Shown here one piece after another: positions 2 to 25,009 of a DNA stretch of 64,000 nucleotides. The first letter of the stretch is position 1. Each line of letters starts with the position of its first letter. The notes beneath the pieces are model-generated. The model was not told where the DNA came from, did not search any database, and worked only from the letters and a program-made list of their open reading frames with translations. Location of the stretch: positions 124,001 to 188,000 of the forward strand of contig LR134390.1 of NCBI GenBank assembly GCA_900637705.1, in the 5' to 3' direction. The position numbers and the translations under genes were made by a program. The DNA comes from Fusobacterium varium (lineage in GTDB: Bacteria; Fusobacteriota; Fusobacteriia; Fusobacteriales; Fusobacteriaceae).

Positions 2-1099
2 GAAAAATTAAAAGAAAAGCTTTTAAAAATAATGAAGATAAAAAAAATAGATGGAATTATTATAGGTTGGAATGAAAATAAAGAATTATATAGGGAACTA
101 AAGGATTTTTTAAGACCTTATAAAACAAAGCTATATTTTTGGTTTCCAGTATTTTCAGAATTATCTTATTATAAGAAATTTAATAAAGTATTAGATTATA
201 AAGAGGAAGAAATAGAAAATTTTTCATTTCAAGAAGGAGAAAACTTTGAATTTTATTGCCCTAATACTATTGAAAATATGCAAAATATAGAAAAAATATT
301 TGATGAAAAATTTTCTGATTATGAAATAGATGGAGTTTTTCTGGATAAAATAAGATATCCGGCATTTTCAAATGGAGGAAAAGCTGTATTTAGTTGTTTT
401 TGTCCTGCATGTATAAAAAAGATGAAAGAAAAGGGAATAGATGTAGAGAAATTAAAAATATACATTGAAGAAAGTTTTGGAAAGTTAGGAAATAATCCCC
501 TTGAAATAGAAAAATATGAAAATTTTAGATATAAATTTAAAAATAAGGAAATGGATCAATATTTTCAATTTAAAAATGATTCAATAACTGAAAAAGTAAA
601 TGAACTTATAGATTTTTTTAAGGGCAAAGGGTTGGAAGTTGGATTAGATACATATGCTTCTGACATATCTTATCTATTTGGGCAAGATATAATAAGGCTC
701 AGTCAAAAAGCAGATTTTATTAAGCCTATGTATTATAGAAGAACTTATGCACCAGCAGGAATACCTTTTGAAATTCAGACTTTTGAAGAAATGTATAATA
801 AAGAAGCTGGAGAATTTCTTTTAAATATTATAGGAGAAAAAGATTTAAAGAATAATATAGGAAAAGAACAAATGAAAGAGGAAGTAAAATATTTATCTGA
901 AAATTTAGAGAATATATTTCTAGGAATAGATTTTAATAAGAAAGAGAATATCGCATTAAGTGATAAAGAATATATAAAAGAAGTATTTGATATTTTAGAA
1001 GAAGGAAATTCAAAGGGAATAGTTCTTTCATGGGATTTGATGAGTATACCTGAAGAACATTTAAAAATATTTCTGGAAAGGGAGGAAAAATGCGATTAG
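2..1099 (+). CDS. Putative glycoside-hydrolase-like protein, 5' end outside window
   Basis: The reading frame is open to the left edge, and the first ATG (32) has no Shine-Dalgarno sequence, so the true start probably lies upstream. At least 355 residues are visible. The segment DGVFLDKIRYPAF, followed by a Cys-rich FCPACIKKM stretch and acidic loops, resembles TIM-barrel glycosidase-like families of bacteria. I cannot name the family. No signal peptide is visible in this part. The gene overlaps the ABC ATPase by 10 bases and is translationally coupled to it, so it probably processes the sugar or glycoside imported by the following transporter. Function is inferred from context and one motif. 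Confidence 0.55.
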   Translation, partial: EKLKEKLLKIMKIKKIDGIIIGWNENKELYRELKDFLRPYKTKLYFWFPVFSELSYYKKFNKVLDYKEEEIENFSFQEGENFEFYCPNTIENMQNIEKIFDEKFSDYEIDGVFLDKIRYPAFSNGGKAVFSCFCPACIKKMKEKGIDVEKLKIYIEESFGKLGNNPLEIEKYENFRYKFKNKEMDQYFQFKNDSITEKVNELIDFFKGKGLEVGLDTYASDISYLFGQDIIRLSQKADFIKPMYYRRTYAPAGIPFEIQTFEEMYNKEAGEFLLNIIGEKDLKNNIGKEQMKEEVKYLSENLENIFLGIDFNKKENIALSDKEYIKEVFDILEEGNSKGIVLSWDLMSIPEEHLKIFLEREEKCD

Positions 1100-4590: not shown

Positions 4591-5013
4591 ATGCAGTACA
4601 AAAGTAAGGATATAGCAAAAGCTTCAGTTATAATGGCTATGAGTTCAAGAGAGGAAGAAGCAGAACTTAAAGTAAAATATTTGAATTTGGGAATAAAAAC
4701 GGCTGCTGTGGATATAGGAGGAAATGTGGTTGATTCTATTTCTAAAATATTAGAGAGAGCTTTAGTGGCTTCTAAAAGAAATGGAATAATATCAGAATCA
4801 CATATATATGAGGGGGCTCTTACAGGAGCAACAAGAGAAGCTATAGCTCAGATTATGGATAAAGCAGTTGGATTTAATGTTGGAGGAAAAATAGGAATTG
4901 CAAGATGTCAGGAACATCTTTCTGTATGCATTTTTTTGACAATAGGAATGTTCAGATTGGACGAAGTGGTAATTGGGCTGGGACATAGAGCAGTACCAGT
5001 AGATCAGGAGTAA
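4591..5013 (+). CDS. HutP-family RNA-binding antiterminator-like protein
   Basis: A 140-residue protein if it starts at ATG 4591, four bases after GAGGTG; the frame is open further upstream but runs into the terminator. The segments KRNGIISESHIYEGALTGATREAI and the C-terminal VVIGLGHRA match the HutP family (PF09021), whose B. subtilis member is a hexamer that binds UAG-containing RNA when charged with L-histidine and Mg2+ and prevents termination in the hut leader. By eye, metal ligands His73 and His77 of B. subtilis align with Gly75 and Gly79 here, and His138 with Glu125. The ligand is therefore probably not histidine bound in the classical way. No hut genes are near. The next element downstream is a leader rich in UAG triplets, its likely target. 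Confidence 0.82.
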   Translation: MQYKSKDIAKASVIMAMSSREEEAELKVKYLNLGIKTAAVDIGGNVVDSISKILERALVASKRNGIISESHIYEGALTGATREAIAQIMDKAVGFNVGGKIGIARCQEHLSVCIFLTIGMFRLDEVVIGLGHRAVPVDQE

Positions 5014-5020
5014 ATAACTG

Positions 5021-5048
5021 TTGACAAAAGCAAAGATTTTTATATAAT
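5021..5048 (+). promoter_or_regulatory. Promoter of the TrpXYZ-like operon
   Basis: TTGACA (5021-5026), 16-base spacer, TATAAT (5043-5048), close to the sigma-70 consensus. Transcription should start near 5055, just ahead of the GUAG repeats, so the leader RNA is about 210 nt. Confidence 0.85.
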
Positions 5049-5064
5049 CATTATTAATAAATAC

Positions 5065-5136
5065 GTAGAATAGTAAAATAGTAGGAATTGAAAAGAAGTA
5101 GAAAAACAAAACAGTAGAATTGTAGGATAGTAGAAA
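5065..5136 (+). promoter_or_regulatory. GUAG-repeat RNA leader, candidate HutP-like protein target
   Basis: GTAG (once GTAA) occurs at 5065, 5073, 5081, 5098, 5114, 5122 and 5130, giving spacings of 8, 8, 17, 16, 8 and 8 bases. Further TAG triplets at 5071, 5079 and 5128 bring the total to nine in 68 bases. The two triple clusters (5065-5087 and 5114-5136) are direct repeats matching at 19 of 23 positions, 49 bases apart. B. subtilis HutP binds three UAG triplets four bases apart on each face of its hexamer; here the gap is five. The stretch has almost no base-pairing potential, as expected for single-stranded recognition. Function is inferred. Confidence 0.7.
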
Positions 5137-5159
5137 AAATTAATACCATTTATAAAATT

Positions 5160-5233
5160 ACCCTTTTTAAAAGGGGATTTGTTGTATTATGTTAATTTTA
5201 CCTTTTTACAATTTTATGTAAAAAGGTTTTTTT
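5160..5233 (+). terminator. Leader terminator with possible alternative pairing before TrpXYZ-like operon
   Basis: Perfect 10-bp stem (5200-5209 with 5218-5227), 8-base loop, then a T run to 5233: an intrinsic terminator ahead of the first gene. Upstream, 5161-5176 forms a smaller hairpin (CCCTTTTTAAAAGGGG). Its CCTTTTTA (5162-5169) is identical to the terminator's left arm (5201-5208), and its AAAAGG (5169-5174) can pair with that left arm. Mutually exclusive folds are therefore possible, as in attenuators. Confidence 0.75.
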
Positions 5234-5265
5234 ATTTTCCGTTCAATAATAATCAGGAGGAGAAA

Positions 5266-6234
5266 ATGAAAATAAAAGTAGGACAGAGATTAATGATGAT
5301 GGTGATGTTTTTAATTATCATTGGAGTACAAAGTGTAGCTCAAGAAGGAAAAAAGTTTAAAATAGGTATTTCACAGTTTGCAGAACACCCAGCATTAGAT
5401 GATGTAAGAAAAGGTTTTGAAGATGAATTAAAATCTTTGGGAGTAAATGCAGATATAATATATAAAAATTCACAGGGAGATACTGGAGTAGCAGGGGTAA
5501 TAGCTCAAAAATTTGTATCAGATAAAGCAGACTTAATATTTGGAATAGCAACTGTATCAGCTCAAGCTGCTAAACAATCTACAGATAAAATACCTGTTCT
5601 TTTCAGTGCTGTAACTGATCCAGTAAATTCTCAATTAGTAAAAACTATGGATAAGGTTGGAGGAAATGTAACAGGAACAACTGATGCAACTCCTATGGAA
5701 AAACAATTAGGACTATTTCAAAAAATTGATCCTAAAATTAAAAAAGTGGGAATAATATATAATACAAGTGAGTCAAATTCAGAAATACAAGTAGCCAATG
5801 CAAAAGAAATAGGTGCAAAGTTAGGGCTTGAAATAAGAGCTGTTGGAGTAAATAATATTAATGATATACCTCAGGCTGTAAATTCTATGATATCTAAAGT
5901 AGATGGATTTTATACTATTACTGATAATATAGTTGCTTCTGCAATAAACCTTATTTCTATGGCAGCTAATGAAAGAGGAATGGTAACAGTAGGTGCAGAA
6001 GAAGCTCATGTAAAAGGTGGAATACTTCTAACAGATGGACTTAGTTATTATGAATTAGGAAGACAAACTGGTCGTATGGCTAAAGAAATACTTGTAGATG
6101 GAAAGAAACCAGAAGATATGCCAGTCGAAACTTTAGCTAATACTACTAAAGTAGTAAATGTAAAAACAATGAATAATTTGAAATTGAATAAAGAGCTTCC
6201 AGTTTTTGAAGGAGCAGAGTTTATAGAACAATAG
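5266..6234 (+). CDS. Amino-acid ABC transporter substrate-binding protein (TrpX-like, PF04392 type)
   Basis: A 322-residue protein starting at ATG 5266, seven bases after AGGAGG; the open frame further upstream crosses the terminator and is not used. A signal peptide (hydrophobic MMMVMFLIIIGV, cleavage near VQSVAQ) is followed by KIGISQFAEHPALDDVRKGF, LIFGIATVSAQAAKQ, PVLFSAVTDPVNSQLV and GRMAKEILVDGKKP. These mark the ABC_sub_bind family, which includes the streptococcal tryptophan/tyrosine importer. It is the first gene of a three-gene importer under the GUAG leader. An aromatic amino acid is a reasonable substrate guess but unproven. Confidence 0.88.
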   Translation: MKIKVGQRLMMMVMFLIIIGVQSVAQEGKKFKIGISQFAEHPALDDVRKGFEDELKSLGVNADIIYKNSQGDTGVAGVIAQKFVSDKADLIFGIATVSAQAAKQSTDKIPVLFSAVTDPVNSQLVKTMDKVGGNVTGTTDATPMEKQLGLFQKIDPKIKKVGIIYNTSESNSEIQVANAKEIGAKLGLEIRAVGVNNINDIPQAVNSMISKVDGFYTITDNIVASAINLISMAANERGMVTVGAEEAHVKGGILLTDGLSYYELGRQTGRMAKEILVDGKKPEDMPVETLANTTKVVNVKTMNNLKLNKELPVFEGAEFIEQ

Positions 6235-6249
6235 AAAAAGGGGTAAAAA

Positions 6250-7140
6250 ATGAATTCGTTAATGACTATATCAATAGAACAAGGACTCATATTTGCAGTA
6301 TTGGCAATGGGAGTATTTATAACATATAAAATATTAGATTTTCCAGACTTATCAGTTGAGGGAACATTTCCATTTGGAGCATTTATTTTTGCAAGATTTG
6401 CAACTTTAGGTCTTGATCCCATAATAAGTACTGTATTAGCATTTGTATTTGGATTGCTAGCTGGGGTTATAACATATTTTCTTCATATTAAAATGAAAAT
6501 AGCTCCTATATTAGCAGGAATACTTACAATGACTATTCTTTATTCTATAAATTTAAGAATAAATGGAAAAGCAAATATTCCTTTATATAACAGCCCATCT
6601 GTTTTTTCATTAGGAAATAAGATAGTAGTTCTTGTGATAATAGTCATGCTTATAAAAGTGTTAATGGATATGTTTCTTAAAACAGAGATAGGATATCTTC
6701 TTATAGCAACTGGAGATAATGAAACACTTGTAAAATCTTTAGGTGTGAGCTGTGACAAATTTAAACTTTTAGGACTTATGCTTTCAAATGGGTTGGTAGC
6801 TGTAAGTGGAGCTCTTATGGGTCAAAGACAGGGATTTGCAGATATAAATATGGGAACATCTATAATAGTTTCTGCACTTGCTTCTATTATAATAGGAGAT
6901 ACTATTTTAAAGAAATCAACAAAATTAAAAGGAACAACAAGAGCTATACTAGGTTCCATAAGTTATAAAATAATAGGTGGAATAGCAATAGATTTAGGTC
7001 TTGCACCAACAGATTTAAAAGCTATCAGTGCAATAATAGTAATAATATTTATAGGATATAACAATGCGTCATTTTTTAGTCTGAAAAAGAAGGGAGGAGA
7101 AGAAAATGCTAAAAATAAAGAACTTGTCAAAGAGTTTTAA
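6250..7140 (+). CDS. ABC transporter permease (TrpY-like)
   Basis: A 296-residue polytopic membrane protein of the branched-chain permease fold. Typical segments are KILDFPDLSVEGTFPFGAF, ILAGILTMTILYSINLRINGKAN and GALMGQRQGFADINMGTSIIV, found in permeases partnered with PF04392 binding proteins. It starts 15 bases after the binding-protein stop, and its 3' end overlaps the ATPase gene by 35 bases, so the two are translationally coupled. Confidence 0.88.
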   Translation: MNSLMTISIEQGLIFAVLAMGVFITYKILDFPDLSVEGTFPFGAFIFARFATLGLDPIISTVLAFVFGLLAGVITYFLHIKMKIAPILAGILTMTILYSINLRINGKANIPLYNSPSVFSLGNKIVVLVIIVMLIKVLMDMFLKTEIGYLLIATGDNETLVKSLGVSCDKFKLLGLMLSNGLVAVSGALMGQRQGFADINMGTSIIVSALASIIIGDTILKKSTKLKGTTRAILGSISYKIIGGIAIDLGLAPTDLKAISAIIVIIFIGYNNASFFSLKKKGGEENAKNKELVKEF

Positions 7141-7882
7141 TGGTGGAACTGAAAATGAATTAAATATATTTAAAGGATTTAATCTAAATATAGAAGAAAG
7201 TGAATTTGTGGCAATATTAGGTTCAAATGGCTGTGGGAAAAGTACTTTGTTCAATCTTATAAGTGGGGCATTGAAAGAAGATACTGGAAGTATCCTTCTT
7301 GATGAAAAATCAATAAATAATTTAAAAGAAGAAGAGAGAGCTTGGGGAATAGGAAAAGTTCATCAAGATCCATCAAAGGGAGTATCTCCTTCTCTCACTA
7401 TATTGGAAAATCTTTCTTTAGCAGATAAAAAATGCGAAAAATTTTCTTTGAGAAGTCTTATAAAAAAGGATAAAATAAAAAGGTTTATTGAAATTTTAAA
7501 GGAAGTAGATTTAGGACTTGAAAATAAATTGAATACACAGGTAAAATTTTTGTCAGGGGGGCAAAGACAAGCTCTTTCTCTTATTATGGCAACTCTTAAA
7601 AAACCAAAACTTCTTCTTTTAGATGAACATACAGCAGCTCTTGACCCTAAAACATCAAAAGTAATAATGGAGAAGACAAAACAGCTTATTGATAAACAGC
7701 ATATTACTGCTATGATGATTTCGCATAATTTAAGGGATGCAGTGCAGTATGCTGACAGAATAATTATGCTGGACAAAGGGAAGATTATACTTGATGTAGA
7801 GAGTAAAAAAATAACTGAATCTGAACTTGTTAAAATATATAATTCTAAAATAGAAAAAGAACAGATGAGGGCAGCAGGATAA
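7106..7882 (+). CDS. ABC transporter ATP-binding protein (TrpZ-like)
   Basis: A 258-residue single-domain ATPase: Walker A GSNGCGKST, Q-loop VHQDP, signature LSGGQRQA, Walker B LLLLDEHTAALDP and H-loop MISHNLRDA. HQDPSKGVSPSLT is usual for ATPases of this transporter class. The ATG at 7106 follows GGGAGGAG inside the permease gene. No clear terminator follows; a new promoter begins about 110 bases later. Confidence 0.9.
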   Translation: MLKIKNLSKSFNGGTENELNIFKGFNLNIEESEFVAILGSNGCGKSTLFNLISGALKEDTGSILLDEKSINNLKEEERAWGIGKVHQDPSKGVSPSLTILENLSLADKKCEKFSLRSLIKKDKIKRFIEILKEVDLGLENKLNTQVKFLSGGQRQALSLIMATLKKPKLLLLDEHTAALDPKTSKVIMEKTKQLIDKQHITAMMISHNLRDAVQYADRIIMLDKGKIILDVESKKITESELVKIYNSKIEKEQMRAAG

Positions 7883-18136: not shown

Positions 18137-18159
18137 CTGAAAATGAAAATTGAATAATA

Positions 18160-18290
18160 CCAAATCGCTTAGTTTATTTTATTAAATAAAGCGGGGGAAC
18201 CATTATTTTTGGGGCGTATTTCCATTAGGAATAGGATACTTTTCAGTCCGAGCCCGTCAGCTAACCTCGTCAGCGTTGAAAAGAGCCTGG
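18160..18290 (+). ncRNA. Cyclic di-AMP riboswitch (ydaO/yuaA type)
   Basis: The conserved blocks of the ydaO motif appear in order: AAATCGCTTA near 18161, AAAGCGGGGGAACCATT (18188-18204), TTTTGGGGCGTATTTCC (18206-18222), AGTCCGAGCCCGTCAGCTAA (18245-18264), and CCTCGTCAGCGTTGAAAAGA (18265-18284). This class binds c-di-AMP and in known cases turns expression off when the nucleotide is high, often for potassium uptake or cell-wall genes. An intrinsic terminator follows at once, then a histidine kinase gene. DisA, a c-di-AMP synthase, is encoded at 53528-54577. Confidence 0.95.
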
Positions 18291-24823: not shown

Positions 24824-24851
24824 ATTTGTGTAGAGAAATTAAATAAAAATT

Positions 24852-24972
24852 ATCTTCAGGGCAGGGTGAGCATTTTGCAACTCCCGACCGGCGGTAAAAG
24901 TCCGCGAAGACCTTTGGTCTTGATTTGGTGAAATTCCAAAACCGACAGTATAGTCTGGATGGAAGAAGAGGA
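24852..24972 (+). ncRNA. FMN riboswitch (RFN element)
   Basis: Conserved RFN blocks in order: TTCAGGGCAGGGTGA (24855-24869), ACTCCCGACCGGCGGTAA (24880-24897), AGTCCGCGA, a short variable stem, then TGGTGAAATTCC, AAAACCGACAGTA, and AGTCTGGATGGAAGAAGA. The class binds flavin mononucleotide and represses riboflavin genes when it is abundant. It is placed ahead of ribH-ribD-ribE-ribBA, giving feedback control of the pathway. Confidence 0.97.
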
Positions 24973-25009
24973 AAGAAATCTTTTTTGATTGTCTTTTTTA
25001 TGCTTTTAC

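Follow-up and report, generated by a model that had tools for sequence, protein, structure and literature searches.

The window analysed here, a stretch of 64,000 nucleotides from Fusobacterium varium (contig LR134390.1, positions 124,001 to 188,000), carries a HutP-family gene that is followed by a leader with two clusters of UAG triplets, an intrinsic terminator and an ATP-binding cassette (ABC) importer operon of the TrpXYZ type. The HutP-family protein is probably a tyrosine-responsive RNA-binding attenuator, acting either through competing antiterminator and terminator structures or on the Shine-Dalgarno sequence. Computation revealed a conserved UAG element, the genes it precedes, its joint occurrence with HutP, mutually exclusive leader structures and a HutP fold; that this protein binds the element, as well as its ligand and the direction of the effect, is inferred. 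In the proposed mechanism, the liganded protein, most likely loaded with L-tyrosine, would bind the two leader-RNA UAG clusters, which have an 8-base period. Without bound protein, the leader would pair its UAG cluster 2 with the terminator's 5' arm and loop, and the antiterminator formed in this way would allow transcription of the importer operon. Protein sitting on the UAGs would block the antiterminator, after which the terminator would fold and transcription stop. In related genera, the element would work likewise before a shikimate-tyrosine operon or, alternatively, lie on the importer's Shine-Dalgarno sequence, where translation would be blocked.

The survey set comprised 98 Fusobacteriota genomes, in which the element has the consensus GUAG-RAUNG-UAG-RAUAG-UAG. 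The 8-base period of the original prediction was retained for the main UAGs, and the register was corrected to 0,(5),8,13,16, with 5-base spacers between the period-8 UAGs. Nine further loci (one strain counted twice) share the promoter, UAG clusters, terminator and trpX-like gene 3' of hutP, and in Sebaldella-like genomes the clusters touch the start of the trpX-like gene downstream of hutP (Sebaldella-like and Leptotrichia-like are genus labels read from gene content and sequence). With the pattern TAGN5TAGN2TAGTAG, sites were detected phylum-wide before hutP-unlinked trpX-like genes, AGCS symporter genes and 3-deoxy-D-arabinoheptulosonate 7-phosphate (DAHP) synthase genes. How many matches there were in all said little, as a backward control gave about as many, and only recurring sequences and gene contexts set the signal apart from noise. 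G precedes the first and second UAG in 21/21 sites, although the pattern leaves those columns free. These 21 sites were used to build a sequence-only motif model (R1), with matches at E<0.01 regarded as strong; the two leader clusters are its sole strong matches in the window.

A search of the 98 genomes with R1 returned 48 strong sites, 46 of which (manual count) stand in the sense direction ahead of trpX-like, DAHP synthase, AGCS (PF01235) or NhaC (PF03553) genes, the transporters being identified by Pfam. More than 20 of the 46 lay outside the model-building set, and the NhaC class surfaced through the R1 model only. The remaining two are located upstream of an aldolase-like gene and within a coding region. 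In genome G040, the UAG-headed operon encodes, by Pfam, DAHP synthase, prephenate dehydrogenase, 5-enolpyruvylshikimate-3-phosphate (EPSP) synthase, chorismate synthase, chorismate mutase/prephenate dehydratase and shikimate dehydrogenase/kinase (DAHP-TyrA-AroA-AroC-PheA-AroE/K), and in Sebaldella the DAHP synthase and prephenate dehydrogenase genes stand under the element. In three genera, the UAG operon has TyrA as its second enzyme gene, adjoining that of DAHP synthase. In genomes G023 and G029, the element is retained on trpX although hutP sits elsewhere; since such unlinked targets exist, an element tied to the neighbouring gene only was rejected. Conservation of the UAG clusters in relatives, the lack of which would have counted against the original prediction, was thus found, and the regulon extends to tyrosine/shikimate biosynthesis and two other transporters, which had not been foreseen.

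Further UAG clusters were noted at single loci. In the window's own genome (G000), five UAGs with an 8-base period lie directly before the Shine-Dalgarno sequence of a family-3 amino-acid binding protein (L197, G000:C1:1430928; gene 6189-6911, minus strand); this gene was not counted as a target because the cluster is hardly, or only partly, conserved in sister species. In another genus (G056, L053), a cluster separates hutP from an amino-acid-permease-like gene and suggests a further target. At L101 (G040:C10:209-234), a cluster touches the start of an HMGL/aldolase-like gene.

The ligand was approached through the importer's binding protein, whose closest solved relative is CD0873 of Clostridium difficile (PDB 6HNI). 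CD0873 binds tyrosine, with Glu263 contacting the tyrosine hydroxyl and Tyr279 excluding tryptophan, while a phenylalanine binder and a tryptophan binder of the same family carry Ala/Tyr and Ala/Gln, respectively (PMC6816091). Glu245 and Tyr261 give the window protein the tyrosine signature, and the Glu/Tyr pair was present in every UAG-linked binding protein compared. It also occurs in some binding proteins of HutP-negative genomes and therefore marks the substrate, not the control. Taken with the position of TyrA beside DAHP synthase in three genera, the signature makes tyrosine the most likely ligand of the regulator, as judged from sequence. The same mechanism with phenylalanine or tryptophan, an aromatic signal of a general kind, or a different chorismate-pathway product as the ligand is possible but considerably less probable. 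It would agree with the presence of PheA in the G040 operon and with a binding-protein family that includes phenylalanine and tryptophan binders, but all UAG-linked binding proteins show the CD0873 pattern, whereas two paralogues behind Trp-rich leader peptides (L214, L215) have the tryptophan-type Gln, and it is TyrA that follows DAHP synthase. Short Trp- or Tyr-rich frames were also seen before hairpins upstream of trpX-like paralogues at L172, L175, L180 and L182 (G044, G046, G050 and G051; peptides MAFVFAWWQDRL, MIRLTWWWQNN, MAHTFAYWRNDYYYYYYGS and MAHTFAYWWSYYYYYYYSSDF); these look like ribosome-mediated leader-peptide attenuators of Trp and Tyr importers.

The sign of regulation is suggested by the leader structure. 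In 14/14 trpX/nhaC leaders, 11-14 contiguous pairs can form between UAG cluster 2 and the terminator's 5' arm and loop (P 0.002-0.028 in each leader against spacer-shuffled clusters). For the window, these pairs join GUAGAAUUGUAGGA (5114-5127) to UUUUACAAUUUUAU (5204-5217), and the helix continues into a long inner stem that persists across species although its sequence varies. RNA ending at the loop folds as the antiterminator in all 14 leaders, and the antiterminator is preferred by 10 of them at full length; when the UAGs were forced unpaired in silico, mimicking protein cover, the terminator formed in 14/14. G046 has a CAACG spacer opposite CGUUG of a different terminator, so that the switch is kept and the sequence changed. 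Most AGCS leaders show nascent-state pairing of UAG-cluster bases with the terminator loop, Sebaldella-like DAHP leaders have UAGGAUA opposite UAUCCUA directly before the terminator, and blocked UAGs favour the terminator in several DAHP leaders. The trpX operons of Leptotrichia-like and Sebaldella-like genomes have the UAG cluster adjoining the Shine-Dalgarno sequence or overlapping it.

Since cluster 2 is itself one strand of the antiterminator and the element elsewhere covers the Shine-Dalgarno sequence, a bound protein would be expected to favour termination or to prevent translation. Repression, as with TRAP and opposite to Bacillus subtilis HutP, is therefore the most likely outcome predicted from the leaders. 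The original prediction was supported as regards control through the terminator, with which the mutually exclusive structures are consistent, and as regards a non-hut target, an importer of amino acids; its analogy with the B. subtilis hut leader, in which binding prevents termination, was not supported. A protein of the B. subtilis kind, preventing termination when bound to the UAGs and activating the importer when a usable amino acid is abundant, seems unlikely. The HutP fold would fit it, and substrate induction of importers would make sense in fusobacteria, which ferment amino acids, but besides the two structural features just named, the same element heads biosynthetic operons, which are expected to be repressed by their end product.

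The HutP-family protein was linked to the element by co-occurrence. PF09021 is present in 52/98 genomes, and a strong site was found in 29/52 HutP-positive but only 1/46 HutP-negative genomes (Fisher 1.4e-9, a value that overstates independence because the genomes are phylogenetically related). Twenty trpX-like upstream regions from HutP-negative genomes contained no such cluster (best score 1.8 vs 12-40 at true sites). TRAP (PF02081) was ruled out as the reader of the UAGs, as it was detected in 0/98 genomes with a positive B. subtilis control. The window protein (140 aa) aligns with the entire PF09021 profile (positions 1-128 of 128; 153 bits, cut-off 25), against which B. subtilis HutP itself scores 111 bits, and its gene is the single copy in the 3.3-Mb Fusobacterium genome. 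The AlphaFold2 model (predicted local distance difference test score, pLDDT, in the table) matched six HutP entries (Foldseek E 1e-8, VIA Z 15-17), the best with about 24% identity, while the next non-HutP fold reached Z 6.9. Family and fold thus agree with the HutP assignment made originally. At the positions of B. subtilis His73 and His77, the profile alignment places Gly75 and Gly79, which are invariant in 13 diverse members, and His138 aligns with Glu125 (structural end range 135..148), one sequence alignment differing there. In B. subtilis HutP, metal and L-histidine are held by these three histidines; the aligned residues therefore indicate that this site is not conserved, and in the modelled protein the HutP fold appears to be retained with the histidine/metal site missing.

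That the UAG element is real but has a different reader, be it an RNA-binding protein or a regulator that binds DNA, with hutP a mere neighbour, is improbable. Elements are present in two genomes in which hutP was not detected (G067 and G039), and numerous hutP genes stand in different contexts; however, the element co-occurs with HutP phylum-wide, unlinked cases included, TRAP is absent, and UAG is the known HutP target triplet. The sense-only orientation and the Shine-Dalgarno overlap moreover suggest that the element acts as RNA.

Other hutP contexts were also noted. In one genus (L004, L005, L019, L024, L025), hutP runs straight into a threonine-aldolase-like gene, no UAG clusters being present, and another role is possible there. 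At L002 and L011, non-coding DNA ~150-300 bases past hutP (GGGACAGAGAGAAAAGGAAAGTATAGGTTAGGGAGT) is conserved and carries a promoter-like sequence of its own; it occurs in Fusobacterium strains whose trpX does not adjoin hutP. A clostridial-type chromosomal contig labelled bacteriophage (L080, MT839154) carries a HutP-like gene flanked by an SpmAB-like pair and by cmk, its product having Gly at both aligned histidine positions. No relatives were found among viral contigs and plasmids.

Besides the relatedness of the genomes, several observations weigh against tyrosine-responsive attenuation by the HutP-family protein. Four of the 14 full-length leaders prefer the terminator at equilibrium even when unbound, and the duplex energies of the AGCS leaders alone are mostly not significant. 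Two-sided compensatory changes in the outer antiterminator helix of the trpX leaders were found at 0/16 pairs, because both strands are nearly invariant; support for the antiterminator comes from complementarity and from switching between families. AGCS and NhaC proteins are not known tyrosine transporters. No strong site was found in 23/52 HutP-positive genomes, where additional functions of the protein or divergence of its sites may be the reason, and the two genomes with the element and undetected hutP are 88% (G067) and 93% complete (G039, where the element is weak).

A chance cluster of repeats in AT-rich DNA can be dismissed almost entirely: the intergenic TAG count is ordinary by itself (9 vs 6.0 +- 1.9 in dinucleotide shuffles; P 0.09), but the crowding of nine TAGs into 68 bases occurred in 0/20,000 shuffles, four of five TAGs in the 0/5/8/13/16 register in 0.025% of shuffles, and the element is conserved before the same gene classes in eight genera.

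The features of the window are compiled in the table; the gene, promoter, repeats, terminator and TrpXYZ-like operon described originally were all present at their coordinates. GTAG/GTAA motifs start at 5065, 5073, 5081, 5098, 5114, 5122 and 5130, and TAG triplets at 5066, 5071, 5079, 5082, 5099, 5115, 5123, 5128 and 5131. For the PF04392 gene, the best NCBIfam model is TrpX, at a score under that model's equivalog cut-off. The hutH homologue (G000:C1:374137) is not linked to hutP (at 128612). At the gathering score, no Rfam family matched the leader, T-box and riboswitches included; elsewhere in the window, c-di-AMP and FMN riboswitches were matched at 18156-18290 and 24848-24974.

Features of the hutP-trpXYZ region (positions are those of the window).
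Feature	Position	Strand	Evidence
HutP-family gene, proposed RNA-binding regulator	4591..5013	+	PF09021 153 bits; AlphaFold2 model pLDDT 86; VIA Z 17.1 to 1vea
Leader sigma-70 promoter TTGACA-16-TATAAT	5021..5048	+	12/12 matches; found too in related Fusobacterium leaders
UAG cluster 1, GUAGAAUAGUAAAAUAGUAG; UAG at 0, 5, 13, 16, UAA at 8	5065..5084	+	R1 E 1.2e-6 (window)
Lone GUAG between the clusters	5098..5101	+	Lacking in most relatives
UAG cluster 2, GUAGAAUUGUAGGAUAGUAG; UAG at 0, 8, 13, 16	5114..5133	+	R1 E 1.7e-7 (window); kept in all trpX leaders
Putative antiterminator 5' strand, overlapping UAG cluster 2	5114..5134	+	14 contiguous pairs GUAGAAUUGUAGGA/UUUUACAAUUUUAU, 5 further pairs
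Inner hairpin, antiterminator tip, CCCUUUUUAAAAGGGG	5161..5176	+	Stem retained in relatives, sequences differ
Putative antiterminator 3' strand, containing terminator 5' arm and loop	5197..5217	+	Complementarity, folding
Intrinsic terminator: hairpin 5200-5227 and U tract	5200..5237	+	Hairpin -11.2 kcal/mol
TrpX-like substrate-binding protein, predicted tyrosine-specific (E245, Y261)	5266..6234	+	PF04392; closest solved structure 6HNI (CD0873)
ABC permease, TrpY-like	6250..7140	+	PF02653
ABC ATPase, TrpZ-like	7106..7882	+	PF00005

HutP has so far been known as a histidine antiterminator of one operon. In a literature search that left most subscription papers outside, nothing was found on the UAG element; HutP was described for hut only, and TrpX importers under T-boxes. 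On balance, we lean towards viewing the non-Bacillus HutP proteins as a separate class of tyrosine sensors with a phylum-wide regulon (tyrosine import, shikimate/tyrosine synthesis and further transporters) and transcriptional or translational UAG attenuation, a convergent counterpart of TRAP on the HutP fold; HutP-like proteins of Clostridia may do likewise. If so, much of the HutP family may sense tyrosine and repress in the manner of TRAP, with a different fold and site geometry. This would account for how fusobacteria of the gut and mouth control aromatic amino acids, provide a function for many genes annotated as 'HutP', and give an example of one fold refitted to another ligand and the opposite regulatory sign.

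Among known systems, B. subtilis HutP (PDB 1VEA, 1WMQ, 1WPV) shares the Pfam family and fold with the window protein. Common to both are also UAG targets in two clusters of three and action on an intrinsic terminator in the leader, both predicted for the window protein; B. subtilis HutP uses two trios of NAG triplets about 20 nt apart, and two such clusters were found in the window, 29 nt apart, and likewise in G046. The two differ in the histidine-site residues (His73/His77/His138 vs Gly75/Gly79/Glu125 here) and in the spacers, which have 5 bases here and 4 in B. subtilis. The targets here are tyrosine genes rather than hut, the gene is not hut-linked, and the predicted effect is termination or a block of translation, not antitermination. 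The T-box of Streptococcus suis trpXYZ (PMC9382623) likewise attenuates transcription of a TrpX-type aromatic amino-acid ABC importer, but is a tRNA-sensing RNA, whereas the leader here has no Rfam match. CD0873 (PDB 6HNI) shares its Glu/Tyr specificity residues with the window binding protein; its paper concerns the transporter and not control by a UAG leader. Closest in logic is TRAP (MtrB) of the B. subtilis trp operon, a ligand-loaded oligomer that covers antiterminator-overlapping UAG repeats and thereby favours the terminator; further TRAP targets are controlled at translation (PMC7430163). TRAP is an unrelated protein that responds to tryptophan and recognises 11 triplets with 2-3-base spacers, as opposed to the 6-8 triplets with an 8-base period and the predicted tyrosine response of transport and shikimate genes here. 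The triplets overlapping a terminator-excluding antiterminator are nevertheless present in these leaders, and by analogy, though not by membership, the system resembles a HutP-family member working like TRAP.
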